This document shows positions 14,695-46,273 of a stretch of DNA of 46,273 nt, in pieces. The stretch is from an uncultured Verrucomicrobiales bacterium (GTDB taxonomy: Bacteria; Verrucomicrobiota; Verrucomicrobiia; Verrucomicrobiales; Akkermansiaceae): the NCBI GenBank assembly GCA_913060685.1, contig CAJXVQ010000002.1, positions 1 to 46,273 of the forward strand, in the 5' to 3' direction. Every line of letters begins with the position of its first letter. The stretch's first letter is position 1. Under the pieces are notes generated by a model. The model was given only the letters and a program-made list of their open reading frames with translations. It was not told the origin of the DNA and did not search any database. The position numbers and the translations under genes are program-made.

Positions 14695-14705
14695 AACCCA
14701 ACCAT

Positions 14706-17251: not shown

Positions 17252-17275
17252 GACGAGAGGCAAAGGCGGTTCTGG

Positions 17276-18394
17276 TCAGGATTGATCAGGGTCGTAGTTC
17301 CAAAGTTCAAGCTCGGGGCGGCAGACCTCGTTCACCATTGCGCGCGTGGCGTCATCGAGCCGATCGAAACGATTTTTGCGATACGAGGACTGTGAGGAAA
17401 TGTATTTTTCGAAAGTGGGCTGAAGGGTGTTGAAATGAGGGATATCAAGTTCTTCGTACACGCTCCGCAAGGCGGAAAGTGGGTCGGTTTCGAGTTCGTG
17501 AAAACTCAGTTCATGGAAGCGGCCGGGAGGAATGAGGGGGCGTTGCGCGTGGTAGGCGTCATGCAGGGTGCGGTAGCGCCCAAGGAGTTGGGAATCGAGT
17601 TGGCTGCGATCAGGTCTTTGAAGATAAGTATACCAGGCTGCGGTGTCCCAATAGTGGCGGTTGGAGCGGAAAACGTCGTGGGGATGGCGGTGAATGTGGA
17701 CGAAGCGGGCGTCGGGGAACATCTCGAGTAAGAGCCGGATGCGGGCGGTGTGTGGAGGAGATTTTAGAACGAGAGGGCGTGCGTATTTGTAGGTGAGCTT
17801 TTTGCAGAACCAGAGGAAGGCGTCCTTCCATTCGTCAATCTCAGCCTTGGGAACGTCGTCGAAGGTGAGGTAGCGATCGAAGTGTTCCTGCCGCTTTGGA
17901 AACGAGATGCCAAGGTAGAGGGATTTCAGGGTGTCGAGACAAGGGGCGAACTCATCTTCCTGGGGAAGGGCGAATCCCATCGCCATGTTGTCCATGGGGC
18001 GTTTATTGGGGACGAGGCGGGCGAATCGGCGGGTGTTGGTCTCCTCGGTGGTGAGGAAGGTGAGAGGGTTAACCACCTGATAGGTGTTGGAGAAGGCGAA
18101 GTTTTTGGTGTCGAGAGCGAGGAGGTTGTGGAGGTGGGTTGTCCCGCTGCGCCAATGGCCGAGAATGAAAAGAGGAGGGCCCGTCAGTTCGGTGGCCCGA
18201 ATCTCAGGATCAAGTTTTCGCTCCTTGCGGGCCGAGAATGAATTCATGCACGCCGCCGCAGTCACGAAGGCGGCCCGGTGCCAGTAGGCCGGGCTAATCG
18301 GATTCTCCCGGAGAAGTTCAATCCAGCGGTCGAGCGTGATTCCCGCGAGGTAGTTGTTGGCGGTGGACCAACGGTGTTTGAGAGCAGAAGACAT
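17276..18394 (-). CDS. PAPS-dependent sulfotransferase (Sulfotransf_3-like)
   Basis: A 372-aa cytoplasmic protein from the ATG at 18394. The reading frame extends upstream to 18670, but that part is arginine/proline-rich and overlaps the porin promoter, so I exclude it. The 5'-phosphosulfate-binding loop is clear (FILGHWRSGTTHLHNLL, with the P-loop-like RSGTT), and the 3'-phosphate-binding strand-helix is VHIHRHPHDVFRSN with an SPPHT segment before it. The enzyme would transfer sulfate from PAPS to a hydroxyl group. As first gene of an operon with a P450 and an exporter, a plausible sequence is hydroxylation, sulfation and export of a lipid, sterol or terpenoid-like compound. That pathway is inference; the enzyme class is well supported. 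Confidence 0.88.
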   Translation of the reverse strand: MSSALKHRWSTANNYLAGITLDRWIELLRENPISPAYWHRAAFVTAAACMNSFSARKERKLDPEIRATELTGPPLFILGHWRSGTTHLHNLLALDTKNFAFSNTYQVVNPLTFLTTEETNTRRFARLVPNKRPMDNMAMGFALPQEDEFAPCLDTLKSLYLGISFPKRQEHFDRYLTFDDVPKAEIDEWKDAFLWFCKKLTYKYARPLVLKSPPHTARIRLLLEMFPDARFVHIHRHPHDVFRSNRHYWDTAAWYTYLQRPDRSQLDSQLLGRYRTLHDAYHAQRPLIPPGRFHELSFHELETDPLSALRSVYEELDIPHFNTLQPTFEKYISSQSSYRKNRFDRLDDATRAMVNEVCRPELELWNYDPDQS

Positions 18395-18719
18395 CCTATG
18401 CCATGATGCTAGGCCAGCAGGAGCGGAGGAACAGGGGAAAGTCAGGGCCGCACGCACCGCAGGAATTTGCTTTTGGGGCGGGGAGCTTGGGAGTGCCCTT
18501 GAGAGGATCGGAGAGGGGAGAGAAGGGTGATTCAATGCGGAGGAGAATTCATCGATCATTAAGATCGCGGCGAGTCCCTTCTTGACCGCCCGACGATGAT
18601 TGATAACCCTTTTCACCCTGGTATATTTTAACTCAACCCTCAGTGGCCGGACTCTGGGGTCCCCCCGCAACGCAAGTTGTCGACGGCGGGTGATTAACTC
18701 CCGGACAAAGAATCAAATC
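18395..18719. other. Divergent intergenic region between sulfotransferase operon and porin
   Basis: A 325-bp stretch without a gene that I accept. It holds a good sigma-70-like promoter for the porin (18600-18627). For the sulfotransferase operon on the other strand I could not identify a convincing promoter. The upstream extensions of both neighbouring reading frames cross this region but look like non-coding translation. Confidence 0.6.
18600..18627 (+). promoter_or_regulatory. Predicted sigma-70-type promoter of the porin gene
   Basis: TTGATA (18600-18605) and TATATT (18622-18627) are separated by 16 bp. Each hexamer matches the consensus at five of six positions. Transcription would start near 18634, giving an untranslated leader of about 85 nt before the porin ATG at 18720. 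The prediction is from sequence only. Confidence 0.45.
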
Positions 18720-28528: not shown

Positions 28529-30889
28529 ATGATCGACCGCAATACAGATACAGCAGGAACCGCCAGCCCGCGAGGCTTCCGGCGGATCCGGACGCGCCTC
28601 GTGTTCTGGACGATCCTGGTTTCTGCGCTTTTCCAGTTGCCTCTCGCCCTTTTCGATTTCTTCGAGACGCGCAGGGTGGTGCTCGATGCCGTCCGTGCAC
28701 AGGGGCGTTCCCTCGCGACGCTCGGACGCGCTCGCATCGATGCCAGGAAAGACGCCGTCGAGCACAGCGCGAATACGTTTGCAGCATTGCTCAACGACCG
28801 CGAAAGCAGCGCGGGCCCGGCATCTCTCCTGCGCAAACTCCGTTCCTTCGTGCGATCGAATGACGACATCTTTGGCTCGACCATCGCGCTCTCGAACGAA
28901 CGATTTGCCCCATACTTCTACCGCGGTGATGACGGGGAGCTCGTTCAACAAGATCTGGACAGTGCCGACTATGACTATCGCACAAAAGATTGGTTCAAGC
29001 TCCCGATCGCGAGTCTCGAGAGCACTTGGTCGGAGCCCTACTTCGACGAGGGTGGCGGCGATGTCTTGATGACGACTTTCTCCGTCCCGTTTTTTTACGA
29101 GGGCGAGCTCAAGGGAGTCGTCACGGCCGATCTGTCTCTGGCGCACCTCGAGCAGATTGCAAGCGCCGTCGAGAACACGGAAGCGGGCTACTGTTCCATC
29201 GTTGCCCGTTCCGGAAAATTCCTCTACCATCCGGACGGTGCGCACCTGGAGGGCTCGACAATCGGTCAACTGGCACGCACCCATGACAACGCAGCACTCG
29301 CGCAGGTGAGCCGGGAACTCGCGGCGGGAAAGTCGGGCTTCGTCCAGACGAAGCACGGGCTTGTGACAGGCCGACCGGGAGTCTTGGTCTACGATTCCGA
29401 TCCTGAATCCGGCTGGTCGCTGATCGTATTTCTTGATCAACAGGACCTGCTTGCCGGGCTCACCCGTCTCACTTGGATCCGCGCCATCGTCGGGCTCATC
29501 GGTTTACTCTTGCTGATCACGATCGTCGCCATCACCGCGCATCGGATCACACGGCCGTTGCGGAAGCTGTCGGCGAGCGCCAACGAGATTGCCAGAGGTA
29601 ATCTGGATCGTCCGATACCTGAGATCGAATCCGGCGATGAGATCGGCGCGCTCGGGCAGTCGTTCTCCCGCATGCGCAGGGATCTCCGGCAGCACGTCGC
29701 AGATCTCACCGCCGCGACCGCCGCGAAGCAGAAACTTGAGAGCGAGCTCGAGGTCGCCCACCAGATTCAGCTCGCGATGGTGCCGGGGAATGGCAATGCC
29801 GAAGAGGAACAGCCGAACTTCCAGCTGGCGGCAAAACTCATCCCGGCTCGAGCAGTCGGTGGCGACTGGTATGACTATTTTCTCTCGGGTGAGGACCAGT
29901 TGGAAATTGTCATCGGGGATGTCTCCGACAAGGGCGTGCCCGCGGCAATGTTGATGTCGAAGACCGTTTCGTCCATCCGCGCTGCCGCCCGCAGCTCGCA
30001 GGCACCGGCGGCGATCCTTTCCCAGGCGAACGCAGAGTTCTCAAAGAACAACGACACCTGCATGTTCGCCACGATCTTTTATGGCATTTTGAATCTTTCG
30101 ACCGGTGAACTTGAGTGGGCGAGTGCCGGACACAACCCTCCAGTTCTGCTGAAAGCCGGCGGGGAGGCGCAGTTCCTCAAGCCCCGGACGAGCTTGCCGA
30201 TCGGGCTGTCCGCATCCAGCTGCTACGAGACCTCTACGTTGAGATTAGAGCCCGGGGATACGCTCGTGCTCTATACCGATGGCGTGACCGAAGCCTTCGA
30301 CCCTGCACAGAGGCTCTTTGGAGACGAGCGCCTGATGGAGACGGTTGGAAGCTCCATTCCGGCGGTTCCGATCGTGATCAACCAAGACATCCTCACTGCC
30401 GTTTCAGATTTTGCGAACGGGGCTGATCAATCGGATGATATTACTCTGCTCACTCTGAGGTTCGGAAATTTCAAGATGAGCAACCGTCAAACATTCACCT
30501 CCACGACCGCAGCCACGGCCGGGCTCAAGCGCGTGCGCCTGGATCTGGTTGATTTTCTCGGCGGCCATCTGAGTGACTCCCACATGATCGACAACGCTGC
30601 GACGATTACCGCCGAAGTTCTCGACAATCTGAGGGAGCACACTCCGACCGATGGTGCTTTCGCGGTTCACGCCGAGATCTGCGACGGCGGGCTTGTGCTC
30701 AAGTTCGTCGACGAGGGACCCGCATTCGATCCGCTCAAGATGCCTCCGTCGGGTATCGAGAAGGAGATTGGCGGGCATGGCCTGCAGATCGTCAGGGCGC
30801 TGGCGACGAATTTGAGCTACGAGCGCAGCGCCAGGGGGGAGAACATTTTGACCGCACAGATTTCCCCGGGCGACAATGATGGTTGTTAG
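28529..30889 (+). CDS. Sensor with Cache-HAMP-SpoIIE phosphatase and C-terminal anti-sigma-type kinase
   Basis: A 786-aa bifunctional partner-switching protein. Transmembrane helix 1 is at about 23-42, followed by an extracytoplasmic dCache-like sensor (about 60-300, with YDYRTKDWFKLP), helix 2 (about 316-337), HAMP (about 338-390) and a short coiled coil. The SpoIIE/PP2C serine phosphatase follows (about 400-645), with metal ligands in GGDWYD (D446), GDVSDKG (D464), YTDGVTE (D584) and QSDDIT (D636/D637). The last section (about 655-783) is a HATPase_c/RsbW-like kinase with the N-box EVLDNLREH (E696, N700), FVDEGPAFDP (D728) and GGHGLQIVR. It could both phosphorylate and dephosphorylate the STAS protein encoded 27 bp downstream, under control of a periplasmic signal. 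No sigma factor is nearby. Confidence 0.9.
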   Translation: MIDRNTDTAGTASPRGFRRIRTRLVFWTILVSALFQLPLALFDFFETRRVVLDAVRAQGRSLATLGRARIDARKDAVEHSANTFAALLNDRESSAGPASLLRKLRSFVRSNDDIFGSTIALSNERFAPYFYRGDDGELVQQDLDSADYDYRTKDWFKLPIASLESTWSEPYFDEGGGDVLMTTFSVPFFYEGELKGVVTADLSLAHLEQIASAVENTEAGYCSIVARSGKFLYHPDGAHLEGSTIGQLARTHDNAALAQVSRELAAGKSGFVQTKHGLVTGRPGVLVYDSDPESGWSLIVFLDQQDLLAGLTRLTWIRAIVGLIGLLLLITIVAITAHRITRPLRKLSASANEIARGNLDRPIPEIESGDEIGALGQSFSRMRRDLRQHVADLTAATAAKQKLESELEVAHQIQLAMVPGNGNAEEEQPNFQLAAKLIPARAVGGDWYDYFLSGEDQLEIVIGDVSDKGVPAAMLMSKTVSSIRAAARSSQAPAAILSQANAEFSKNNDTCMFATIFYGILNLSTGELEWASAGHNPPVLLKAGGEAQFLKPRTSLPIGLSASSCYETSTLRLEPGDTLVLYTDGVTEAFDPAQRLFGDERLMETVGSSIPAVPIVINQDILTAVSDFANGADQSDDITLLTLRFGNFKMSNRQTFTSTTAATAGLKRVRLDLVDFLGGHLSDSHMIDNAATITAEVLDNLREHTPTDGAFAVHAEICDGGLVLKFVDEGPAFDPLKMPPSGIEKEIGGHGLQIVRALATNLSYERSARGENILTAQISPGDNDGC

Positions 30890-30916
30890 ATCCAACCCGA
30901 TGCCGTAATTAGAGCC

Positions 30917-31291
30917 ATGAGCTTGGACATCTCCACTAACGCCCTCCAGACGATCGCGACCAAAGTCATTTTGAGCGGCAGCCTCGATTCCGATACCGCG
31001 CCATCGCTGGATCAGCGCTTGGATCTGATTTTGGCTGGCAAGACGAACCGCCTGGTGTTTGACATGAGCAAGCTGAATTTCGTCAGTAGCGCCGGACTGC
31101 GAGTCATTTTCAAGGCGCAGAAGAACGTTGAGGCACAGGGCGGGGAAGTGGTCATGGTCAATCTCCGCCCACAAGTGGAAAAAGTGTTCGAGATCGTCAA
31201 GCAGTTGCCCTCGTGGTCGATCTTCCAGAACGATGCCGAGATGGACGACTACCTCCAGGTGATTCAATCACGGGCTGCCGACCAATCGTGA
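30917..31291 (+). CDS. STAS-domain anti-sigma-factor antagonist
   Basis: A 124-aa single STAS domain with the hallmark segment NFVSSAGLRVIF. Ser58 aligns with the phosphorylated Ser58 of Bacillus SpoIIAA. VILSGSLDSDTA (about 17-28) and VVMVNLRPQVEKVFEIVKQL (about 78-97) also fit. It is the likely substrate of the phosphatase/kinase encoded 27 bp upstream on the same strand: unphosphorylated it would bind an anti-sigma or other partner, phosphorylated it would release it. The final target is not in this window. Confidence 0.9.
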   Translation: MSLDISTNALQTIATKVILSGSLDSDTAPSLDQRLDLILAGKTNRLVFDMSKLNFVSSAGLRVIFKAQKNVEAQGGEVVMVNLRPQVEKVFEIVKQLPSWSIFQNDAEMDDYLQVIQSRAADQS

Positions 31292-31510
31292 AAGGTCTTA
31301 TCAAATTCCCGTTGCCGACCGGTGCGGGTTCTGTTCTGGATTTTTGCAGGCAGTCGGCAGCTTGTTGCACGTGTCGTGCTGCGTGCCCAGCGCGAGAAGT
31401 TACGGCAGGAATTTGCCTTTGGGGTTGAACGCGTGAGGGGCTGTTATCTCCACCTTCGATAGCTAGAACATATTAGTAGCCGAACCCTAAAAACGTTCTA
31501 ATCTCTTCCT

Positions 31511-31984
31511 ATGCGTCAGTGGAAACAATCAACGGCAAACTTCCTTTTTCTTTTGCTCTGTCTAGCCCTGTCTTCCTGTGATGACAGCAAAACTCCGGCC
31601 AACACATCCAAAATCGACAACGGTCCGGTTGGCACGTGGAAGATCGACAGTGAGGCCACGCTCGCTGCAAACCAGGCGCAGATCTCCAGCGAGCTCGAAG
31701 CCATCCCCGCGCCACAGCAGGCGGAGGCCAGAGCCAAGCTGGAGGAAATGTTCAAAAGCGTCGAAGGAACCATGGAATTCAAGGCAGACAAGACCCTCGT
31801 CTCGACTACGGTCTTCAATGGAAACGAGATGGTGATGCAGGGCACCTGGGAGATTGATGGTGATAAGGTGACCTCGACAGCGAAGGGCCCGAACGGAGAG
31901 CAGATCTCAACTGGCACCATCGAGGACGGCCTCCTCAGTCTTTCTCCCGACCAAATCCAGTTCGTGGTGCTAAGACGAGAGTGA
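31511..31984 (+). CDS. Small lipoprotein of unknown function
   Basis: A 157-aa protein with a lipoprotein signal peptide ending LALSSCDD (Cys23). The Asp at position +2 after the cysteine would, by the enterobacterial rule, favour inner-membrane retention. The mature part has a helical charged section (about 50-85) and then a beta-rich section, MEFKADKTLVSTTVFNGNEMVMQGTWEIDGDKVTST, like lipocalin-type proteins that carry a GTW...DG pattern. A repeat-like resemblance exists between GTWKID near residue 42 and GTWEID near 116. I cannot assign a role. It stands alone. Confidence 0.75.
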   Translation: MRQWKQSTANFLFLLLCLALSSCDDSKTPANTSKIDNGPVGTWKIDSEATLAANQAQISSELEAIPAPQQAEARAKLEEMFKSVEGTMEFKADKTLVSTTVFNGNEMVMQGTWEIDGDKVTSTAKGPNGEQISTGTIEDGLLSLSPDQIQFVVLRRE

Positions 31985-32030
31985 TCTTCACCTCATGAGT
32001 CGAACAGAAGTAGGGAGCATTCGGGCTTAG

Positions 32031-33974
32031 CTACTTCTGGTCTTGTTTCTCACGCTCGACCGACTCGTTCACTGCACGGTCGAACTCATCGCGGAACACC
32101 GCATCCGCATCGGCGGCTGATGTTTTCGGATTCAGATAGGGGCGGCGCCGGGGCGTGGAATCACCCCCTTCCCAACGCAGCTTTTTGAACTTGGGAATCA
32201 CCCCTTTCCACGTTTGCTTCACCTTACCCGGGCTTTGCTTCTGCCCCGGCGTCAGGATCAGGCTGGTCGCAAAATCATAGCTGGCAAGTTCCTCGCCAGA
32301 CTCCGAGACGAACTTGTTCATGGGCAGCGAGATGGCGTGCTTACCTGCTTCGGCCAAGGCCACCAAGGCAACATAAGGCGTGGGCTTGCGGCCCGTATAG
32401 CCCCGCCAGCGATCGACATCGATCACCACCGCCAGAGTTTCGCCAGGCGCGGTTGTCGTGATCTCGAAGGCGAGCGCCGCGCCCTTTGGCCCGACGAAGG
32501 CTGGGTCGTTGATCTTGCGAGTTTCGAAATTCCAGTGCTCCCGATTGTTCGCCGCGATGATGGACCAATCCTGCCATCCACGGGCAAAGTCATCGATCAG
32601 GCGCTGACGCTTCACCGTCGCCTTCACTCCGGCGGCCTTCAATTGATTCGGATAGGCCTCACGATACTCGCTGGTGAGCGTCAGCAGTGAGCTCTCAGGG
32701 TAGCCCCGGGGCATCACAATTTTCTCGCCGGTCTCGTAAATGACGTTGGCAAAGGCGAACAAAGGCTCGCCGGGATTCATTACCGGACACTCGGCTGAAA
32801 AAACACCACCGTCACGCACGACTTCCGCCGAGCGCCAGAAACGCGCGCGGGGGTCACGATCGTAACCATAGTAGATCTCCACCCGCTCGAGTTGATGTGG
32901 CCCGGAGAGATCGGGTCGCACTGTAAAACGTGGCACGCCATTCTTCGTTTTCAAATCTAACGTCGCCTTCGCGGTCTTTGGGAAGACGAATGATTTCTTG
33001 AGGTGCGAATCGAACCAACGGATGCGCGCCATCATGTTGTTCACGGTGAAGCGGTGGTTCATGTGCGGGGTGAACGAGGTGCGACTCTGCGCCACTTCAG
33101 GGAGTGATCGAAACCCGCGGATCACAAACTCCATCGGCGAATTAAAATCGTTGGTCGCCCCGAGAAACATCACCGGGCAACGCACCAGCGGCCAGTAGTA
33201 TTGGGAATCGACCGTCTTCAAATACAGATCCCGCTCGGGGCCCTCTGCCATCCGCCTGGCCGAGCCCGGAATGCCGACGATGTCGGTGTAGAGATAACCG
33301 CTGCCTCCAACGGACGGCGAGGCCGCCTTGATTCGTGGATCGATTGCCGTCAGCACCGTCAGGCGTCCCCCCATGCTGTGCCCTTGGAGGCCGATGCGAT
33401 TTCCGTCACATTGCGGTTGCTGTTCCAGAAAAGTAATGGCCCGCCGCGCCGCCGCCGCGTAGAGAATCCATGAACTATTCCACGGGTGGGCCTGCGAGTG
33501 GATCGTTCCCTTCCCCGGTTCCACCCCATTGTGATGTTTGGGATCGAGAAACCCGGCAGGAATTCCCTGCCAGTCGGTATTCGGATCAGCCTCTTGGCCA
33601 ATGACTTTCCCGCCCCAGTTTACCGAGATCGACGCATAGCCACGCGCTGCGTAAAACTGCACCAGGTCCTTGCGGGCGCGCTGTCCGCCACCGTGCGCTT
33701 GAATGAGACCAGGCAGCCCCTTCGCTCCGTCCGGGAATGCATAGAAGGCCGCGACCCTCGTCTTCTTTCCCGCGAATGTGCCAACCACGAAACGCACGTA
33801 GCGGGTGACGATTCCGTCCGCAGATTCCTCGCGCACCACCTCGGCCTCCAGCGGCTCCGCACGCGCATCAAAGTCGGCCCAGGTTTTGGTAACAGTCCGG
33901 GGGACTTCCTGTGCAGAACTGTCGATGAGGATCAGACAGAATAAGGCGGCGAACAAAATAGTAGGTGTTCTCAT
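32031..33974 (-). CDS. Secreted acetyl-xylan-esterase-like (AXE1) hydrolase
   Basis: A 647-aa protein with a signal peptide (about 1-21). The AXE1/dienelactone-hydrolase-type catalytic domain covers about 35-330: LIQAHGGGQR (oxyanion region, about 91-99), the nucleophile elbow GLQGHSMGGRL (Ser200), GATNDFNSP (Asp276) and PHMNHRF (His307) give a full triad. The C-terminal half (about 345-647) is beta-rich, with PDLSGPHQLERVEIYYGYDRDPRARFW and a later CBM-like portion, probably a substrate-binding or structural module. It would remove acyl groups from polysaccharides or related esters outside the cell. No glycoside hydrolase or PUL gene is adjacent, so the substrate is open. The start at 33974 begins the signal peptide directly. 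Confidence 0.85.
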   Translation of the reverse strand: MRTPTILFAALFCLILIDSSAQEVPRTVTKTWADFDARAEPLEAEVVREESADGIVTRYVRFVVGTFAGKKTRVAAFYAFPDGAKGLPGLIQAHGGGQRARKDLVQFYAARGYASISVNWGGKVIGQEADPNTDWQGIPAGFLDPKHHNGVEPGKGTIHSQAHPWNSSWILYAAAARRAITFLEQQPQCDGNRIGLQGHSMGGRLTVLTAIDPRIKAASPSVGGSGYLYTDIVGIPGSARRMAEGPERDLYLKTVDSQYYWPLVRCPVMFLGATNDFNSPMEFVIRGFRSLPEVAQSRTSFTPHMNHRFTVNNMMARIRWFDSHLKKSFVFPKTAKATLDLKTKNGVPRFTVRPDLSGPHQLERVEIYYGYDRDPRARFWRSAEVVRDGGVFSAECPVMNPGEPLFAFANVIYETGEKIVMPRGYPESSLLTLTSEYREAYPNQLKAAGVKATVKRQRLIDDFARGWQDWSIIAANNREHWNFETRKINDPAFVGPKGAALAFEITTTAPGETLAVVIDVDRWRGYTGRKPTPYVALVALAEAGKHAISLPMNKFVSESGEELASYDFATSLILTPGQKQSPGKVKQTWKGVIPKFKKLRWEGGDSTPRRRPYLNPKTSAADADAVFRDEFDRAVNESVEREKQDQK

Positions 33975-39134: not shown

Positions 39135-39527
39135 CTACTCACTCGCCGGATTCACGAGAGTGATCGGAGATTTCGTGAATCCTCGGGGATCACGAGTCAC
39201 AATCGTCTCAGCCTGAACCGCGAGCGCCGACGCAATCTGCATCGCATCTTCTATATCTCCGCTGCTATGCGCTAAGGCAACGGCAAGATCTTTGTGCTCC
39301 ACGGGAGCGATCGTGCACACCTTGGTAATTTCTTGAATGAAGGTCAGTGCGTCCTCTTTTGTTTCCAACCTACCTAAAATATAGGCGAGATTGGAGACGG
39401 TGTGCCACGACAGAAAACAAGCGTGATTCTCAATCGCTTCCGAAAGAATCTCGTAAGATTTTGTGAAATGTGGCTCACGTCTTAAGGCCACATCAAGCAG
39501 GACATTGGTATCGAAAAATATCTTCAT
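39135..39527 (-). CDS. PIN-domain toxin (VapC-like)
   Basis: A 130-aa PIN-domain ribonuclease. It opens with KIFFDTNVLLDVALRREPH, giving the first metal-binding acid D6. SWHTVSNLAYIL follows, then DIEDAMQIASA with D91 and D94 as central acids, and TRDPRGF near the end (D113). Length and motif order match PIN_3 toxins. It would cut RNA to stop growth when the antitoxin is lost. The start codon overlaps the antitoxin stop by four bases (ATGA, 39524-39527). Confidence 0.88.
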   Translation of the reverse strand: MKIFFDTNVLLDVALRREPHFTKSYEILSEAIENHACFLSWHTVSNLAYILGRLETKEDALTFIQEITKVCTIAPVEHKDLAVALAHSSGDIEDAMQIASALAVQAETIVTRDPRGFTKSPITLVNPASE

Positions 39528-39814
39528 CCCTGCTCGGTGTATTTCTCCCAGATCGCCTGCCCTTTGGGGTCATCTTCAAAAGCTTTTTCGCCCTCCACCA
39601 TGGCAGGCCGCTTTCCCCACGAGTTCAGAAATTCCAAGGCATGCTTCTTCTCATCATCGGACGGAGTTTCTCCAAACTGCTCCTGATAGTCCTCAAATGA
39701 GATCACCACGGCAACAGGCCGCCCCTGCTTCTCAATCGTCACGGGCTCCTTCTGAGCCTTATTCATCAAGGCTCCAAAATGAGTCTTGGCTTCGGATGCG
39801 GAAATCGTCGTCAT
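39524..39814 (-). CDS. Phd/YefM-family antitoxin
   Basis: 96 aa from the ATG at 39814; upstream alternatives at 39832 and 39859 would place the start inside or next to the operator. The N terminus, MTTISASEAKTHFGALMNKAQKEPVTIEKQGRPVAVVISFEDY, is the Phd/YefM DNA-binding fold. The acidic C terminus would wrap and inhibit the PIN toxin. Such antitoxins usually repress their own promoter, and a 19-bp imperfect palindrome lies 28 bp upstream. Confidence 0.9.
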   Translation of the reverse strand: MTTISASEAKTHFGALMNKAQKEPVTIEKQGRPVAVVISFEDYQEQFGETPSDDEKKHALEFLNSWGKRPAMVEGEKAFEDDPKGQAIWEKYTEQG

Positions 39815-39841
39815 GCCGATACCGTAGCACATTTTAATCAA

Positions 39842-39860
39842 AATGGTCAATTTGATCATT
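39842..39860. promoter_or_regulatory. Predicted antitoxin operator palindrome
   Basis: AATGGTCAA - T - TTGATCATT forms a 19-bp palindrome with one mismatched pair, in an AT-rich stretch flanked on both sides by further AATCAAA sequences (39835-39869). It lies 28-46 bp upstream of the antitoxin ATG, where autoregulation by Phd/YefM proteins would be expected. Confidence 0.6.
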
Positions 39861-39892
39861 TAAATCAAAGAGCCAATATTGCCATTCTCCCA

Positions 39893-40098
39893 CCCCAACG
39901 GGGCAGACTAACGCAGCCCAGCGGGCTGGGTTTCTCTTCCCCTCAAACCACCAAGCCCTGTAGGGGCGATCTAACCTCCCGTGAACTTTCTCACTCCGAG
40001 ATCACCCCACCATTAGATCGCCCCTTCAGGGCTCCTCATTCTCCGCGTCCTGACACCCCACGCGTTGCGTGAGGCTACGTTAGATTGCCCCGTTGGGG
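39893..40098. repeat. Nested palindromic repeat block (REP/BIME-like)
   Basis: A roughly 206-bp unit in which small palindromes are arranged as a large inverted repeat. Outer arms 39893-39910 and 40081-40098 match inverted at 16 of 18 positions and each contains CCCCAACGGGG or its complement. Inner arms 39954-39974 and 40013-40033 match at 20 of 21. A third palindrome (AGCCC AGC GGGCT, about 39915-39927) is partly mirrored near 40056-40077. The centre is about 38 bp. No transposase is in the window. It resembles non-autonomous REP-like elements mobilised by RAYT transposases, but that link is inference. Confidence 0.7.
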
Positions 40099-40122
40099 CG
40101 CAAGATCACCTCCTTGACTCAC

Positions 40123-40144
40123 GATAGTATCACGTGATACTATC
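40123..40144. promoter_or_regulatory. Perfect 22-bp palindrome directly upstream of fic start
   Basis: The half-site GATAGTATCAC is followed directly by its exact reverse complement GTGATACTATC, with no spacer. It ends 5 bp before the GTG start codon of the Fic gene and occupies the place of a ribosome-binding site, none being visible. A bound dimer would block transcription or translation initiation. The Fic protein has a C-terminal winged-helix-like segment and is itself the best candidate ligand. Confidence 0.65.
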
Positions 40145-40149
40145 ACGCC

Positions 40150-41175
40150 GTGACTCCTCCCTTCACCATCACGCCCCTCATCCTCCGCTGGGTCAGCCAG
40201 ATCGAGCGACTGATCGGGCGGATCGAAGGCCTCGATCAACCCAAGCTCCAGCCTCATCTTCGCAAGACCAATCGCGTCCGCACCGTTCACGGGAGCCTTG
40301 CCATCGAGGGAAACACTCTCGACCTCGACCAAATCACCGCCCTCATGGAAGGAAAGCGCGTCCTCGGTCCACAGGAAGAAATCCGCGAAGTCCTCAATGC
40401 CATCCAAACCTACGATGACTTAGCCGCCTTCGATCCCCTCCAAGCCAAGTCTCTCCTCAAAGCCCACAAGCAAATGATGGAGGGCCTCATCCCAAATGCC
40501 GGGGAATGGCGCCGCAAAAATGTCGGCATCCTCAAAGGCTCCACCGTCTCCCACATCGCACCCCAGGCCGACCGCGTTCCCTACCTCATGGACGATCTTT
40601 TTGCCTTCCTCGCGAAAGACGACCTCCACCCCCTCATTCGCTCCAGCATCTTCCACTACGAGCTCGAATTCATCCATCCCTTCCAGGATGGAAATGGCCG
40701 CATCGGCCGCTTTTGGCAGAGTCTCCTTCTCTACCACTACCATCCCGCCTTCGAGTTCATCCCCATCGAATCCCTCATCAAGGATCATCAGCAGGAATAC
40801 TACCAAGCCCTGGAAAAATCCGACCGCGCCGGCGACTCAACCCACTTCGTCGAATTCTCTCTGGAAATGATCCACCGCGCCCTCGAAGACTTCCTCCAAA
40901 ACTTTAGCCCCAAACCACTCACCGCTGAAGAACGACTCGACCGCGCCGCACAGGAATTCTCCAAGCAAAAATTCTCCCGAAAAGACTACCTCGCCCTCTT
41001 CAAAACCATCTCCACCGCCACCGCGAGTCGCGATCTCAAACACGGCGTCGAATCCGGACTCCTCCAAAAGAAAGGAGCCAAAGCCCAAACGGCGTACGAA
41101 TTCAAAAAGCCCTCAGGGAAGCTTGGAGCGTCGCCCTCCATCTCACAAAATGAGATTCGGCCCGAATCTCCCTGA
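40150..41175 (+). CDS. Fic-family AMPylator with N-terminal inhibitory motif and C-terminal winged helix
   Basis: A 341-aa protein from a GTG start. The active-site loop HPFQDGNGRIGR (176-187) is complete, with catalytic His176, so transfer of AMP or another nucleotide moiety to hydroxyl groups is expected. The inhibitory helix motif SLAIEGN (S49 to N55, with E53) precedes the Fic core, making it a self-restrained class II Fic protein. The about 260-320 region, EERLDRAAQEFSKQKFSRKDYLALFKTISTATASRDLKHGVESGLLQKKG, looks like a winged helix-turn-helix domain. The combination usually indicates a chromosomal regulator or standalone toxin-like module. Its start abuts a perfect palindrome, suggesting autoregulation. 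The extreme C-terminal about 20 residues are low in conservation character. Confidence 0.9.
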   Translation: MTPPFTITPLILRWVSQIERLIGRIEGLDQPKLQPHLRKTNRVRTVHGSLAIEGNTLDLDQITALMEGKRVLGPQEEIREVLNAIQTYDDLAAFDPLQAKSLLKAHKQMMEGLIPNAGEWRRKNVGILKGSTVSHIAPQADRVPYLMDDLFAFLAKDDLHPLIRSSIFHYELEFIHPFQDGNGRIGRFWQSLLLYHYHPAFEFIPIESLIKDHQQEYYQALEKSDRAGDSTHFVEFSLEMIHRALEDFLQNFSPKPLTAEERLDRAAQEFSKQKFSRKDYLALFKTISTATASRDLKHGVESGLLQKKGAKAQTAYEFKKPSGKLGASPSISQNEIRPESP

Positions 41176-41288: not shown

Positions 41289-43160
41289 TCAGGGAGCGGT
41301 TTGAGCTCCGAAGCGGTAGTAGACGTTTGGAGAGGGCGGGTTTGGATCGGTGACGGTGATGCTGGTGGCTCCGACGAGGGCGCTGACTCCGGCCACCGGG
41401 GTGCTCGTAGCAGTCGGGCCGTCGTAGCGGTAGATCTCGGTGTAATTTTCCAGGTCCGTTGTCCGCTCAATGATCCAGCGGGTGTCGACTGCCGCGATGG
41501 GGTTGAAGCCGAAGGTGATTTCGATTTCGCCCGCGCCATTGGTGATGACTTCCGGGTTGTTGGGCGAAGCGGGATCGGAGATCAGGACGCCGGTGCCGAG
41601 GGCGTATTCGGCGCCGTTGGCTGTGGGGTCTTCGTCGGCATTACCGGAGAAGCTGGCATCCAGTCCTTCGCTGATCATCTCGGTGGCCCAGACGCCGTAG
41701 CCGGCGGCATTGCCGGACTCATAGGCTCCGATGTCGGGAGCGCCCACCCGGGTGAAGCTACGTTGATCGGTGAGGAGTGCGCTCGCTCCAGCGGCGTTGA
41801 TGGCTGGTGAGCCGGCGCGCAGCGCTATTGTCTGAGTGGACCCGCCGTAGTCGCCGAGTGGCGCGAGCAAGGGATCGATCGGATTGGCCGGCGTGCCCAC
41901 GAGCAAACCTTCGGGAAACGCCGTCTCAACCGATTCGTTGCTTCCGATGAGATTCGTGCCCGTTCCCGAGATCGGGCCGCTTCCGGTGTCACTTAGGATA
42001 TCGGCGGCCATAGGCGCGGAGTTACCAGCGACAATGCTATTTTCAATTTCTATAGCGCCCCCACTGATCCGAATCCCGCCTGCTGAGATCGTTGCGGTAT
42101 TATTGGCGACTGTGCTGTGCTTCAATCTGATGGTGGCTCCGTTTGTGTAGAGACCTCCCGCGCTATCTGCCTCATTGCCGCTCACGGTGCAATTCACCAG
42201 ATCGATCACCGCCGTCGGGCGGTAGCTGAATAGTGCCCCGCCCCCTGCTGTCGCCCTATTTCCCACGAGGGTGCAGCTCTGCATGGTCAGTGAACTGACA
42301 GTGTCTGCATAAACCGCCCCTCCAAGATATTCGCTGCCTTCCGTCATCGTAAGGTTGCTCAGAGACACCTCGCTCACTCCCGAGATGAGAAAGATGCGAG
42401 ACGCATCGTTGCCGGAAATCGTGATGCCGTCGGAGAGTGCAGAGGCATCGACGCTCAGGCTCTTATCCAGCGTCAGCTGGCTTCCGCCCAGCGTAATCGT
42501 CCCGCCGGAGAGCCCGGCATCAAAGTCCACGGTCTCGCCCGCCGCCGCATTGGCGATGGCCTGCCGCAGCGATCCCGGGACCGTGTCCGCCGTTAGGTAG
42601 GCCCGCTTGTCGGTGTGCACTGTGTGGCCCGTGGAGTCAGTGTAGTTGCGGGTATCGACGAGGAACAGACTTCCCGATGCCGCTGGGATTCCAGCCACCG
42701 CAAAACTAAGATTCCCGCCCAGCAACCCGGCATCGTCATCCATCGCAGCCACTTCGAACGTGTCGGTCAGTCGATCCCCAGCAACCCGTTGGTAGGAAAG
42801 GAACCCGGCATCGATTTGAGCCTGGGTAAACATCGCGCCCGCGCCTTGCGAGATCCCGTTCAGAAAGAGCGTCCCGTGGACCGGGCCAGTCACCAGCGTG
42901 AACGTGATGGTGCCGCCGCCCGTCACTTTGAGCATCGCCATGGTAATCGTGAACGAATCCCCCCCGGAATCCGTGATGCCCGTGTTGGCGATCAGGTCAG
43001 GGGCTCGCGTATCGACCGAGAATAGCGGCGTCGAGTCTTGGTAGTTCCGCGTGTCGAGGAGGAACGGAGTGGAGTCTCCGGAGGTCGCGTGAGCGAACGG
43101 CACCGCGACAAGCGATGCGATCGCCAACAGGATTTGGACGAATGGTTGGGGAAGTCTCAT
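41289..43160 (-). CDS. Secreted right-handed beta-helix protein with choice-of-anchor Q-type region
   Basis: A 623-aa protein with a signal peptide (about 1-26). Two related short segments follow, [12 protein letters not shown] (about 33-44) and [12 protein letters not shown] (about 165-177), each preceding a new section. Between them is a cadherin/CSPG-like beta domain ([17 protein letters not shown]). From about 195 a parallel beta-helix runs with repeated patterns such as [27 protein letters not shown] and [21 protein letters not shown] block typical of choice-of-anchor Q proteins follows ([23 protein letters not shown], about 440-462). The C-terminal about 130 residues are an Fn-like/autoanchoring region. 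It is probably an exported adhesin or polysaccharide-binding protein; no catalytic residues are apparent. It starts 222 bp after the DGR template repeat in the same direction. Confidence 0.83.
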
Positions 43161-43381
43161 GATGGTTTGTGGTGATAGGGAAATGAATCGCCGGCCCGGG
43201 CCTTCGCGGCAGGCGAGCCTGCGGCTACCAGCCCGGGCGCGACTGTGTTGTTCGTTCCCCGCGCATGACGCGCAGGAAACAGGCCGTGGCCGGTGGGCTT
43301 TCTATCGGGTCGCCAGGCGGGTCCATGGACGCCGCCTGTTCCGCCCTGGTGCGCTTCCGGAGAAGGCGCCCCTCGCAGAAT

Positions 43382-43512
43382 CCCCCTCGCACTCCGAAAT
43401 CCGATGTTGTTGTTCTCGTTCACCGGATTGTTGTTGTTGCGATTGGCGCAGCGGAGGTTGTTCGTGTTGTTGTTCCACGAGCCGCCCCGCAGCACGCGCG
43501 CCCCGGAGGCTG
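43382..43512 (-). repeat. DGR template repeat (TR)
   Basis: A 131-bp segment aligning gap-free with the VR at 45006-45136. On the coding (minus) strand the core (43474 down to 43405) is a run of AAC/AAT codons in the VR frame: [27 protein letters not shown]. That is the signature of an adenine-mutagenised template. All 61 positions outside the core are identical to VR. The TR overlaps the last 93 bases of the RT gene (43420-43512). A GCGCTTC/GAAGGCGC imperfect hairpin lies at 43351-43369, 12 bp beyond the TR. Confidence 0.96.
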
Positions 43513-44580
43513 TCTTCCGACCGGGCCTAATTGTTCAGCGAGTTCGCGGCGCAAGTTGGCGACCAAGCCCGCGGTGTCTGCCTGCAAAGCGTGGCCACGC
43601 CAGCTCATCCAGCGCGCCGTCAGCGCTTCCTTTGTGAGGGTCCCTGCGGTGTATTGCCGCACGTTCCACCGCAGCCGCCGCCGTGCCGCGACCACGTTCG
43701 GACGGCAGAGGCGCTGCTTGCCCGGCCAGACCCGCTGGCCGAGGAAGGTCACCCCGTCTGCCACGCGGTGGGTGCGTGATTTGCCTGCGTGCAGCCGCAG
43801 CCTGACCTGTGCGAGACGCTCGACGATGGCTGCCCGCCATTCGCGCAGCTCGCCCTTGTCGTCCGAGAAGAGCAGGAAGTCATCAACGTAGCGCAGGTAG
43901 CCGTGGCAGTGGAGCTCCTGTTTCACCCAGTGGTCGAAGGGCGTGAGGTAGATGCCGCCGAACCACTGGCTGGTGAGGTTGCCGATCGGCAGCCCGACGC
44001 GGCGCTCCGCCGCCTCTGCCAGATCGTCGCCAGGGAAGAGATTGCAGACTGGCTCCTGCGGGTTGCTGTGATCGATGAGGGTGTCCATCAGCCACAGCGT
44101 GTCGCGGCAGCGGACGGTACGACGCACGATCTGTTTGAGGATCTCCAGGTCGATGCTGGGATAGAATTTGCGGATGTCGCATTTCAGTACGTAGCGGTAG
44201 CGCTTGGTCAATTCCCGGCAGCGCCGGATCGCGGCGTGGGTGCCCATGCCGTCCCGGTTCGAGTAAAGGTCGTGGATCATGCGCTTTTCAAACAACGGCA
44301 TCACCACCCGGCACAGCGCGTGGTGCACCACCCGGTCGCGGTAGGGCGCGGCACTGATGAGACGCCGCTTGGGCCGGTGGATGAACCGCTCCCGATAGTC
44401 GCCCGGTCGATAGGACTGCTCCACCAGCTCCCGGCGCAGCTGCAGGAGCTCCCGCTCGCGGCTCGTGCGGAACTCCCCGACATCGTGCCGCAAGCGCTTG
44501 CCACGCTCACAGCTCCGCGCCGCCAACAAGAGATTCTCGAAGGAGATGATCTGTGGGTAGAGCTGGTTGTAGGTCTTCAT
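43420..44580 (-). CDS. DGR reverse transcriptase
   Basis: A 386-aa group-II-intron-like RT of the DGR clade. The ATG at 44580 begins [29 protein letters not shown], the usual DGR RT opening; a 44604 extension overlaps avd and is rejected. The first catalytic aspartate is in [13 protein letters not shown] (D135), the DGR-typical [12 protein letters not shown] lies at about 196-207, and the YVDD box is at 231-234. [19 protein letters not shown] and [14 protein letters not shown] belong to the finger/thumb end. It would copy TR RNA into adenine-mutagenised cDNA with Avd. The recognisable protein ends near LAEQLG. The remaining about 34 residues, mostly read from the TR in another frame ([19 protein letters not shown]), include the stop codon inside the TR. 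This tail is unusual and probably non-essential. Confidence 0.96.
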
Positions 44581-44587
44581 GCTCAGT

Positions 44588-44929
44588 TTAGGCGGTGGCC
44601 GCATTCTTCAACCAGCCGCCGATCATGCGGCCGACCTCGTCGATCTTCTCCGACACCACTCCGTAGCGTTTGTGGCTGAAAAACTTCATGTCGTGCGCCA
44701 GACGGACCAAGTGGCGGGTCAGCTCCAGCAGCAGATTCGCTTCCTGCAGGTGCTCGCGCTTCTCGCGACTATAGTAGGCGCGGATGCAACGCTCCTGCAC
44801 GTCGAGCAACCGGGTCTGGATCCGGTCCGCCAACAGGAACTTCTGGTCACGCGGAAACTTGCCCAGCTGCGGGATGAGATAGAGCAGCAGATCGTGCAGC
44901 TTGGTCAGGACATTGTCGCTATTCGCCAT
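44588..44929 (-). CDS. avd: Accessory variability determinant (Avd), four-helix bundle protein
   Basis: A 113-aa basic helical protein matching the Avd/23S-IVP-like four-helix-bundle family, with LLLYLIPQLGKFPRDQKFLLADRIQ (about 14-38), LLELTRHLVRLAHDMKFFSHKRYG (about 67-90) and a C-terminal VSEKIDEVGRMIGGWLK. In characterised DGRs Avd forms a pentameric barrel that binds RT and the template RNA and is required for mutagenic cDNA synthesis. It ends 7 bp before the RT start and begins 70 bp after the target gene, so the three are probably one transcription unit. Confidence 0.94.
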   Translation of the reverse strand: MANSDNVLTKLHDLLLYLIPQLGKFPRDQKFLLADRIQTRLLDVQERCIRAYYSREKREHLQEANLLLELTRHLVRLAHDMKFFSHKRYGVVSEKIDEVGRMIGGWLKNAATA

Positions 44930-44955
44930 TTTCGCTTTTTGCTAAAAAATTCCGC

Positions 44956-44973
44956 CCGGGGGCAAGCCCCCGG
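44956..44973 (-). other. GC-rich hairpin downstream of VR (DGR cruciform or terminator)
   Basis: CCGGGGGC - TT/AA - GCCCCCGG is a perfect 8-bp stem, or a 7-bp stem with a 4-nt loop. It lies 32 bp past the 3' end of VR, between the target stop codon and avd. In the Bordetella phage DGR a hairpin just after VR enhances retrohoming, and this element has a comparable stem. On the coding strand it is followed after 7 nt by six T residues, so it could also attenuate transcription into avd. Confidence 0.6.
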
Positions 44974-44999
44974 AACCCCCAAGAGTAAAAGAAAAAAGG

Positions 45000-46193
45000 T
45001 TAAAGCCCCCTCGCACTCCGAAATCCGACGACGAAGCCCTCGTTCACCGGATCGTTGCTGAAGCGGTTGGCGCAGCGAAGGAAGTCCGAGCCGTCGAACC
45101 ACGAGCCGCCCCGCAGCACGCGCGCCCCGGAGGCTGAAGTCGGACCGCGAGGATCAGTCGCAGGTGAGGAGTCGTAGTAACTTCCATCATACCAATCCCA
45201 GCACCACTCAAACACGTTTCCCGCCATGTCGTAGAGCCCGTAGCCGTTGGCTCTGTTGACCCCCGCGGGCAACTGGCCGCCGTCGTAAAATCCGACAGGG
45301 GTGGTACCAGGAAAATTGTTATCAAACGGATCCCCACTTCCGTTGTAGTTGGCATCTGCGCCGCCGATCGTATTCCCCCATGGGTAAGTGTTGCCCACCA
45401 AGGTCCCGCGCGCCGCCTTCTCCCACTCCGCCTCGGTGGGGAGACGGAAGCCCTTCGCCGCCCAGTTCGCGAAGGGGGCCGTCCCTTCCCCGGTCTTGAA
45501 GACCGTGGTGAACCCCGCATCGGTGTAATACACCGGTGTCAGCCCCTCCTTCTCCGAGCGCGCGTTGCACCATTTCACCGCGTCAAACCAGTTTATGGTG
45601 TGCACCGGGTGGAAGGCGCCCTGACCTGAGCCGGCGTTGCCGAAGATGTAGCCGTTGGCGGGCTGCACTGCCCAAGCATGCACGTCGTCCCACAGAGCCT
45701 TGGTCACCTCAAACTGGTCGAGGTAGAACGCGCTCACCGTCACGGTGTGCACGAGTCCCTCGGGAGCAGTCGTCCCATTTCCCATCTCGAACGGCCCCGC
45801 CGGAATCAGCACCATCCCCGCCGGCGGCGGGCCGGGCGCAAAGCCGTCGTTGGCGATGACCCGCACCACCATGGTAGCGTTGAACTGCTGGTTGAAATCG
45901 ACCGAGGCGTCCCACACCAGCGCCTTCGCCGCGGGCGTCGGCGTGGCGGTCACGCTGGTATCGCCGCTCAGCGCGGTCACCGGCACGGTGAAGCTCGTCC
46001 CGGAATCGTCCGAGATCTCCACCGACATTGAGAGGGTGTCGGAATCGGCATCGGAGACCTCGAAGGTGATATCGACCAACTTCGTCCCGGCCTGCTGGGC
46101 GGAGACGACATTGGCGACCACCGGGTCGGCGGCGTGGAGCGGGAGGGCGGCGAGGAGGGCAAGCGCGGAGCCTGCGAAGTGGCGAAGTTTCAT
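45000..46193 (-). CDS. DGR target: secreted formylglycine-generating-enzyme-fold variable protein
   Basis: A 397-aa protein with a signal peptide (about 1-21, cleavage near LHAAD). A beta-sandwich Ig/FnIII-like domain (about 22-118) follows, then a proline-rich hinge (FAPGPPPAG), then an FGE-sulfatase/SUMF1-type C-type-lectin fold (about 125-397). Family blocks include MVLIPAGPFEMGNG, FYLDQFEVTKALW, VNWFDAVKWCN-like, RLPTEAEWEKAARG, GLYDMAGNVFEWCWDWY and RVLRGGSW...FRSARG. FGE-fold proteins without the copper-site cysteine pair bind ligands and do not modify sulfatases; this is the usual class of DGR target. The last about 43 codons are the VR. Varied residues are 366-371, 378, 379, 381 and 386-389; residues 376, 380 and 384 are variable in TR coding but unchanged. 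The 5' region is cut off 32 bp upstream of the ATG by the contig end, so no promoter is visible. Confidence 0.95.
   Translation of the reverse strand: MKLRHFAGSALALLAALPLHAADPVVANVVSAQQAGTKLVDITFEVSDADSDTLSMSVEISDDSGTSFTVPVTALSGDTSVTATPTPAAKALVWDASVDFNQQFNATMVVRVIANDGFAPGPPPAGMVLIPAGPFEMGNGTTAPEGLVHTVTVSAFYLDQFEVTKALWDDVHAWAVQPANGYIFGNAGSGQGAFHPVHTINWFDAVKWCNARSEKEGLTPVYYTDAGFTTVFKTGEGTAPFANWAAKGFRLPTEAEWEKAARGTLVGNTYPWGNTIGGADANYNGSGDPFDNNFPGTTPVGFYDGGQLPAGVNRANGYGLYDMAGNVFEWCWDWYDGSYYDSSPATDPRGPTSASGARVLRGGSWFDGSDFLRCANRFSNDPVNEGFVVGFRSARGL
45006..45136 (-). repeat. DGR variable repeat (VR)
   Basis: The 131-bp counterpart of TR at the 3' end of the target gene, ending two codons before the stop. 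Relative to TR, 22 bases differ, all between 45029 and 45098. Twenty are at TR coding-strand adenines, changed to G, T or C (examples: AAC to TTC, AAC to GGC, AAC to GTC, ACG to TCG, ATC to GTC). Only two are elsewhere, both silent third-position changes (CTC to CTT, AAT to AAC). The unmutated 3' flank, GGATTTCGGAGTGCGAGGGG, is the likely initiation-of-mutagenic-homing site. Confidence 0.97.
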
Positions 46194-46225
46194 GACTGGT
46201 TGGGAGGATTATTCTTACATTATAG

Positions 46226-46273
46226 CTGTCTCTTATACACATCTCCGAGCCCACGAGACCGAGGCTGATCTCG
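46226..46273. other. Residual Nextera (Tn5) i7 adapter, right end
   Basis: CTGTCTCTTATACACATCT (46226-46244), the reverse complement of the mosaic end, is followed by the i7-side adapter and index CGAGGCTG. It mirrors the left end exactly and shows that genomic sequence stops at 46225. Confidence 0.98.

Follow-up and report, generated by a model that had tools for sequence, protein, structure and literature searches.

A complete diversity-generating retroelement with a conserved hairpin 3' of its template

About 31,000 diversity-generating retroelements (DGRs) are listed by Roux et al. 2021 (PMC8144416), and that survey describes most cellular DGR target clusters as carrying a signal peptide or an N-terminal membrane segment. 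In DiGReF (PMC3521204), group 2 is defined by a TR downstream of the reverse transcriptase (RT) and group 3 by a TR that overlaps an end of the RT open reading frame (ORF). For phage DGRs, a further study (PMC3240598) describes a hairpin 4-34 bp after the VR, with a GC stem of 7-10 bp and a 4-nt GRNA loop. Here we describe a locus at one end of a 46,273-nt stretch of DNA (the window), which is a complete DGR of known kind on the minus strand. Repeat and profile searches recovered the target with its terminal VR, avd, RT and TR, intact and on a single strand as the preliminary description had reported, and in the order that it had given, VP-VR-avd-RT-TR. The features are as follows.

45000-46193, minus strand: target (variable protein), 397 aa; PF03781, E 3.1e-52; nearest solved chain 2y3c
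45003-45136, minus strand: VR core (the repeat reaches 45147); direct repeat with TR; 3' end near-invariant and IMH-like
44956-44973, minus strand: GC-rich inverted repeat, 29 nt 3' of VR; 7-bp stem and 4-nt loop CTTG; terminator-like match in a scan
44588-44929, minus strand: avd, 113 aa; PF22296, 2e-21; NF033474, 4e-32, above cut-off
43420-44604, minus strand: DGR RT, open frame of 394 aa; PF00078, phrog_1423, tree, and IGNLTSQ and YVDD motifs
43379-43512, minus strand: TR core (the repeat reaches 43523); direct repeat with VR
43161-43378, minus strand: interval from TR to the next gene, candidate for the Sp part of the template RNA; position like that of the BPP-1 Sp
43193-43239, minus strand: conserved hairpin; fold, R1 model (38.3 bits) and covariation
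41289-43160, minus strand: downstream exported-looking protein with FxxDTR motifs and cadherin-like and beta-helix domains, from domain searches
46227-46273, no strand: sequencing adapter (presumably Nextera) at the contig end, non-biological; its letters recur at the end of another contig of the assembly

The RT matches PF00078 (E 1.5e-18) and phrog_1423 (5e-106), and its nearest solved chain is 8ub7 (E 1.5e-46), which we take to be the BPP-1 RT. Its IGNLTSQ motif is similar in other DGR rows, whereas outgroup rows carry QGxxxSP. The preliminary description had proposed a search of the RT against DGR profiles and its placement in a DGR phylogeny; in the tree, 7 outgroup rows split from the 42 others with support of 100/100, and the window RT groups with DGR RTs. 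The rows of this tree are a chosen part of the fetched sequences (11 viral rows from 36 viral loci fetched), leaving out L002, L015, L020 and L024, which are broken or short, and L017 and L021, which gave no match. A reading of the locus as a defence system was discarded, PADLOC having returned general RT matches only. The longest RT frame shares 17 nt with avd; the likelier start is the ATG at 44580, shortly after the avd stop, because the relative L029 starts there. At its other end the frame stops inside TR (43420), with its last 93 nt in the repeat. One may postulate that this TR-coded tail is a functional, conserved part of the RT under dual coding, as the frame enters TR identically in the window, L028 and L029. 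Across the host's taxonomic order, however, the RT frame varies relative to the target frame (target frames were taken by longest ORF, and some are wrong), and the RT stops ahead of TR in 9 of 26 loci. We rejected conserved dual coding given these varying frames and consider it highly improbable; the run of the RT frame into TR is probably incidental.

TR and VR form a 145-nt direct repeat (43379-43523 and 45003-45147) that is 81% identical, and TR adenines, read on the minus strand, account for 23 of the 27 mismatches. Within the 134-nt core, differences occur at 21 of 36 template adenines versus 2 of 98 other positions (Fisher p 6e-13). One of the 21 is the border adenine at 45005, and the variable stretch of 45029-45098 delimited in the preliminary description proved to be bounded by the first and last changed adenines ahead of that border. 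The 3' end of the VR core reads ..GAGGGGGCTT, and its TR counterpart reads ..GAGGGGGATT. A stop codon is unreachable from every adenine-bearing template codon that we tried, and adenine change could alter the target's tip at as many as about 19 codons. We found no remote VRs in the same genome; TR and VR aside, the search gave three weak matches, each 21-32 nt long (on contigs C539, C391 and C588), none of which continues across the variable part, and the C539 match was judged to be chance once its contig was viewed in full. Contig C391 also carries an FGE-type paralogue that is 54% like the target. The GC-rich inverted repeat 3' of VR matches the phage consensus in stem, loop size and distance, whereas its CTTG loop departs from GRNA as given in PMC3240598; the repeat may correspond to the homing hairpin or cruciform, terminate transcription of the target gene, or do both. 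At L029 a clear VR-side hairpin was not discerned in the sequence.

The target contains a domain of the FGE-sulfatase/C-type-lectin type (PF03781) with VR at its C-terminus, and a signal-peptide-like stretch was seen by eye at its N-terminus. Among solved chains the nearest to it is 2y3c (E 2e-27), from a variable protein of Treponema denticola that we take to be the DGR target TvpA. Aligned to 6muj, the target is missing both positions of the cysteine pair that presumably forms the FGE catalytic site, which suggests a C-type-lectin/FGE fold without the active-site cysteines. The proposal that an exported host protein is diversified is probably correct, given the signal-peptide-like stretch and the relationship to 2y3c; the target is probably exported, and it probably binds varied outside ligands (particles, cells or phage).

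Whether the cassette belongs to the host chromosome depends on its surroundings, where the preliminary description had seen no phage gene in 46 kb. Pfam detected no virion, packaging or integrase families on the 36 window proteins. A PHROGs search of 30 of the 36, at E 1e-3 or 1e-5, gave matches outside the DGR for a PhoD/LamG protein (2522-5545; two 'virion structural protein' families, E 3e-13 and 3e-7), for an MFS protein (5e-63, function of the family unknown) and for radical SAM, Fic, SpoIIE-type and antitoxin proteins; we read all of these as shared domains. On the visible side, then, no phage context was recognised beyond domain-level PHROG matches; on the other, the contig breaks off in adapter and shows just 33 nt upstream of the target. 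As phage-borne DGRs are numerous and the contig stops this close to the target, the cassette could in principle belong to a prophage or satellite with its remaining genes past the contig end. Nevertheless, ordinary genes extend over 46 kb on the other side, and a contig of a sister genome (C313, which would join contig C438) opens with the target's missing first 112 residues and continues with ordinary DUF1588/1592 and DUF1552 genes, making it the probable continuation of the sister target. In addition, the three-row RT clade of the window includes none of the 11 viral tree rows (36 viral loci fetched), and PHROGs gave no tail family for the target. A phage or satellite origin past the contig end is consequently most improbable, and the best explanation as a whole, which we hold with high confidence, is a DGR among ordinary genes in the chromosome of a Verrucomicrobiota bacterium, whose nearest named relative is a Verrucomicrobiales MAG. 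Among 49 loci, the FxxDTR neighbour lies beside the DGR in three (the window, L028 and L029) and beside a further copy on contig C417 of the sister, all in a small clade; we rejected it as a general DGR partner on this count, in which part of the 49 contigs stop early.

The sister genome, from the same genus (G026), also carries the cassette, and comparing the two tests naturally and cleanly whether change in a host-encoded target is confined to adenines. The sister VR departs from that of the window at 16 of 35 shared template adenines and at 2 of 99 other VR sites; elsewhere in the target, 63 of 595 sites differ. Fisher tests gave p 2e-9 and 0.004. Relative to their surroundings in the target, VR adenine sites thus change faster and other VR sites slower in this one sister genome, which is the pattern predicted by repeated overwriting from TR. 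Strict identity of VR in a related genome had been put forward as evidence against diversification; the sister VR instead differs, mainly at template adenines, so the DGR has been active and has altered the tip of a single binding protein that is probably exported. It may also be active at present. The sister also carries a second VR (VR2, on C417) beside a cassette copy without RT, TR or hairpin, which we did not accept as proof of action in trans. An alternative scenario is an intact cassette that has ceased to act, its VR having diversified in the past and now drifting. The two non-adenine differences in the window's own VR core would fit such drift, as would the presence of the cassette in just 2 of 27 genomes of the genus (E 1e-20); moreover, three changes in the sister TR (zero-based positions 80, 81 and 120 of the 145-nt repeat) are absent from both of its VRs, so homing there may be old. 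All cassette frames remain open, however, the hairpin 3' of TR is retained, and the non-adenine VR sites are better conserved than the rest of the target, as expected under continued overwriting from TR. We therefore consider an extinct element unlikely.

TR is separated from the next gene by 218 nt (43161-43378), a region partially conserved with L029, whose RT is 63% identical. Within it, 139 nt beyond TR, is a hairpin with a 9-bp stem, an internal loop GGUA/GAA and an apical stem-loop in the predicted fold; the R1 model scores it at 38.3 bits, the window being a training row of R1. The hairpin covaries across DGR alignments, although the rows of alignment A1 were chosen by eye for the motif, so that the A1 and A2 counts lean towards the hairpin structure. 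A putative second structure lies just 3' of TR, where only two lineages align. Of 26 TR-last loci in the host's order, 19 have the hairpin 3' of TR and on its strand (15 served as training rows and 4 were first noticed by eye), as do 14 of 36 viral DGR loci outside the discovery set; it is thus found in many but not all DGRs, template-first phage DGRs among them. The models gave no match in the other 7 of the 26 template-last loci (one of which, L105, is cut by the contig end), in 22 of the 36 viral loci, in 8 of 11 named records, BPP-1 included, and in the DGR-bearing genomes G044, G046, G053 and G057 within a scan of 58; Rfam returned no match at E up to 1. As the hairpin ends 32 nt ahead of the start codon of the next gene, it might be a terminator or a regulator of that gene, outside the DGR RNA. 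This is very unlikely given that a terminator scan does not list it and that in viral DGRs its matches fall between TR and RT; the hairpin is probably part of the known Sp RNA. At loci with a known TR and a model match, the hairpin is 74-169 nt 3' of TR in any gene order. We give roughly even credence to the broader proposal that one hairpin (a stem, an AGUAG/CGAAA internal loop like a bulged-G loop-E, and an apical stem) serves as a portable template-RNA handle in DGRs of Verrucomicrobiota, phages, at least one spirochaete and, with weak scores, archaeal viruses, so that the RNA unit of TR plus hairpin, not gene order, would define the element. If this holds, the RT mRNA of template-last elements would itself end, on its 3' side, in the hairpin, an arrangement that would help RT and Avd to load in cis. 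The hairpin provides a searchable RNA mark independent of gene order and a mutation site for testing how RT and Avd find the template.

These observations are consistent with a mechanism in which one transcript would span avd, RT, TR and the Sp region (a scan found no sigma-70-like promoter in 42900-46273). RT and Avd would bind the Sp RNA that follows TR, the hairpin probably being one part of it, and cDNA would start near the TR 3' end (IMH*), with the RT misreading template adenines. The cDNA would then replace the target VR as far as the IMH border, beside the GC-rich DNA hairpin. In the target, a probably exported protein of C-type-lectin/FGE fold that probably binds varied outside ligands, this would open up to about 19 tip codons to change.

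The preliminary description had considered the template-last order noteworthy, which was not borne out: this order occurs in DiGReF, and TR follows RT in 26 of 29 loci with a detected TR within the host's taxonomic order, so template-last can be the usual layout within a host group. For this set, loci with flanks were fetched for all RT matches but the two weakest (G071:C17 and G375:C92); at L084 two pieces of TR/VR were joined, and at L078 TR was extended by hand. The BPP-1 DGR (mtd-avd-TR-brt) resembles the present element in its Avd, its homologous RT (34.8% identity) and its adenine bias, and, as described in PMC3240598, in using the region between TR and brt as Sp and in the GC hairpin after VR; it differs in that TR precedes RT, the target is a phage tail protein, the VR-hairpin loop is different and the hairpin models do not score its Sp. 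TvpA of Treponema denticola, compared at the protein level, is an FGE-fold protein that aligns across the VR region (2y3c, E 2e-27). DiGReF groups 2 and 3 (PMC3521204) share a TR after RT or overlapping the RT ORF end, while section 13 of that paper describes no RNA element. Finally, the cellular DGRs of Roux et al. 2021 (PMC8144416; six clades) are likewise host-encoded, their targets bearing a signal peptide or membrane segment. DGRs that reside in a host genome and act on an exported target are thus already known, and the present cassette is one more of the kind.

The preliminary description had claimed a complete diversity-generating retroelement (DGR), and the target gene with its variable repeat (VR), avd, the reverse transcriptase (RT) gene and the template repeat (TR) do all lie on the minus strand, with adenine-biased mismatches between the repeats:

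46193-45000, minus strand, target gene, first in transcription order
45136-45003, minus strand, VR, inside the target gene
44973-44956, minus strand, GC-rich inverted repeat between VR and avd
44929-44588, minus strand, avd
44604-43420, minus strand, RT
43512-43379, minus strand, TR, after RT
43378-43161, minus strand, intergenic stretch between TR and the downstream protein gene
43160-41289, minus strand, downstream exported-looking protein, FxxDTR-type

The repeat spans 145 nt at 81% identity, and within its 134-nt core TR and VR differ at 21/36 template adenines versus 2/98 other bases (p 6e-13); the DGR is real and complete. Variable codons of the VR are chiefly AAC or AAT, and the 19 adenine-bearing codons of the TR would by simple counting allow ~7e18 protein variants, none with a stop. 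A near-terminal adenine of the TR (..GGGGGATT) is C in the window VR, and the same end difference recurs in L028 (the cassette record of the sister genome G026), in the further relative L029 and in the sister genome's second VR, which marks the border of transfer there; adenine-derived changes affect 13 VR codons before it. A VR-side hairpin, 29 nt after the VR, has a 7-bp GC stem and also scores as a terminator. Its stem and distance agree with those of phage DGRs as given in PMC3240598 (GC stems of 7-10 bp, GRNA loops, 4-34 bp after VR), although its loop is CTTG rather than GRNA. Positions 46227-46273, like the end of L006, another contig of the same assembly, are sequencing adapter and not biological.

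The RT matches Pfam RVT_1 and PHROG phrog_1423 (5e-106) and carries the motifs IGNLTSQ and YVDD; its nearest solved chain is 8ub7 (1.5e-46), which we take to be the BPP-1 RT. Avd matches NF033474 above the cut-off, and a PDB sequence search at E 0.01 returned no chain for it. The target has an FGE-type domain, and its nearest solved chain is a T. denticola variable protein, to whose C-terminal part the VR aligns. Because both cysteine positions that we presume to be active-site residues of the formylglycine-generating enzyme 6muj are absent from the aligned target, the latter is most likely a binding protein.

As the preliminary description had proposed, we placed the RT in a tree, built from a selection of 49 RTs; it fell among the DGR rows, with the 7 non-DGR rows apart at 100/100. 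The window and L028 RTs (97% identical) paired at 100/99 and were joined by the L029 RT (63%) at 100/100; this clade contains none of the 11 viral rows, and as far as can be seen the DGR is host-encoded. FxxDTR-repeat exported-looking proteins, whose domains otherwise differ, lie directly downstream of the DGR in all three clade members (41289-43160; L029:5246-7918). Just past this neighbour in the window, at 39135-41175, a Fic protein (PADLOC SoFic, 2e-48) accompanies a pair resembling a PIN/Phd toxin-antitoxin system. At 14273-18670, genes for an MFS transporter, a cytochrome P450 and a sulfotransferase stand in a row with two frames that Pfam does not match, and together they resemble a small biosynthetic cluster.

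In the genus, 2/27 genomes have an RT match at E 1e-20: the window's and G026, where the cassette lies on a 4.4-kb contig and is letter-for-letter identical to L028. Strict identity of the VR between relatives, which the preliminary description had named as evidence against its reading, was not found: the two VRs differ at 16/35 positions where both TRs have adenine, at 2/99 other core sites, and the target outside the VR at 63/595 sites over the extent of the G026 contig (Fisher tests, p 2e-9 and 0.004). The DGR is probably still working.

On contig C417 of G026 (~30000-32700) lies a second target gene, with a VR that is 80% like the TR. There only the start of avd remains, fused to sequence that lies 3' of the TR in the intact copy and followed by an FxxDTR-type protein; by eye, the deletion ends share CCGGT at the junction. 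Most of avd, the RT, the TR and the RNA hairpin considered below have been lost by deletion while the diversified VR was kept; no RT or TR was found at this copy, and the hairpin model gave no match on the two records spanning it (L143, L144). As this VR has six non-A core mismatches to the sister TR (80, 81 and 120 being window TR letters; 97, 108 and 117 unique to it), its diversification either preceded the deletion or took place, at a slower pace, in trans, an action inferred in other systems (PMC10907252).

Layout and setting, singled out as remarkable in the preliminary description, proved ordinary. RT matches at E 1e-20 or better occur in 33/386 genomes of the order (39 matches), and among 37 loci, some sharing a genome (window, L028, L043, L072-L105), 29 had a detectable TR/VR pair and eight had none found; TR follows RT in 26 of the 29 and precedes it in three (L079, L082, L085). 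DiGReF (PMC3521204) already contains both the TR downstream of the RT (group 2) and the TR overlapping an end of the RT frame (group 3). One template-first locus, L085, is from the same family (G339), and in the tree its RT (L058) forms a pair with that of BPP-1. The RT frame enters the TR by at least 1 nt in 17/26 template-last loci and by more than 10 nt in 14/26, traversing the whole TR in some. That the TR-coded RT tail is a conserved protein part was rejected, because the RT frame relative to the target-gene frame varies across loci.

The element of more than ordinary interest in the window DGR is an RNA hairpin 139 nt beyond the TR (43193-43239, minus strand). When up to 330 nt after the TR were folded at 26 loci (25 of the order plus L029), one hairpin recurred, its internal loop being [AG]GUA / GAA; among the template-last loci of the order it was found in 19/26. 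In an alignment of 16 rows chosen by eye, 84.6% of cells are paired and 13/14 pairs have changes on both sides; covariation was 0.70 versus 0.25 in shuffles (reached by 0/500) and at most 0.20 when slid, but these rows had been selected for the motif, and a fair test must be sought elsewhere. Rfam 15 gave no match over 42900-46273 at E up to 1.

A search model of the hairpin, R1, run on 53 sources at E up to 1, matched its 16 training rows and eight others: six 3' of a TR (L028, L095, L097 and L102, previously spotted by eye, with L030 and L079) and two at loci lacking a detected TR (L081 and L104), 288 and 624 nt past the RT frame. With the same limit of E up to 1, a scan of both strands of 36 viral DGR loci (353,543 bases) yielded eight matches, the best at 0.015; each lies on the strand of the TR and 80-98 nt past it. 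The model R2, whose training set also took in four of these viral loci and the spirochaete row L030, was searched at E up to 5 against 59 sources outside that set. It gave 11 matches, every one of them on the strand of the TR and 76-152 nt past it; four copy a training row exactly or nearly so, and L079 was already known from R1. Overall, 14/36 viral loci have a match, ~8 different DGRs by equal RT identity. On 58 whole genomes R2 gave three matches with E no worse than 0.1, each of them at a DGR; as all three are training rows or a near-copy, this indicates a low false-positive rate, not reach.

With filters off and E up to 5, R2 gave nine matches on 11 named records (10 new), six of them misplaced (E 1.3 to 4.3) and three correctly placed: Chromohalobacter phage YPCBV-1 (E 0.007) and the archaeal viruses vir525 (E 0.99) and ANMV-1 (E 1.3), the latter two supported by place, not score. 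In YPCBV-1 (L146) the hairpin lies between TR and RT, and the target, annotated as SUMF1/EgtB/PvdO family, shares its domain type with the window target. R2 did not find the hairpin in BPP-1; by eye, and uncounted, a similar arrangement (stem, CAAUAG / UGAAAA, stem) lies 33 nt after the annotated TR.

A limited literature search, part of it barely informative, turned up no paper describing a conserved RNA motif of DGRs. On the simplest reading, the hairpin would be a shared core of the DGR spacer RNA, and the RT message of template-last DGRs would carry this hairpin/spacer unit at its 3' end; in BPP-1, according to PMC12875486, the spacer 3' of the TR primes cDNA and adopts a fold by which bRT-Avd is recruited.
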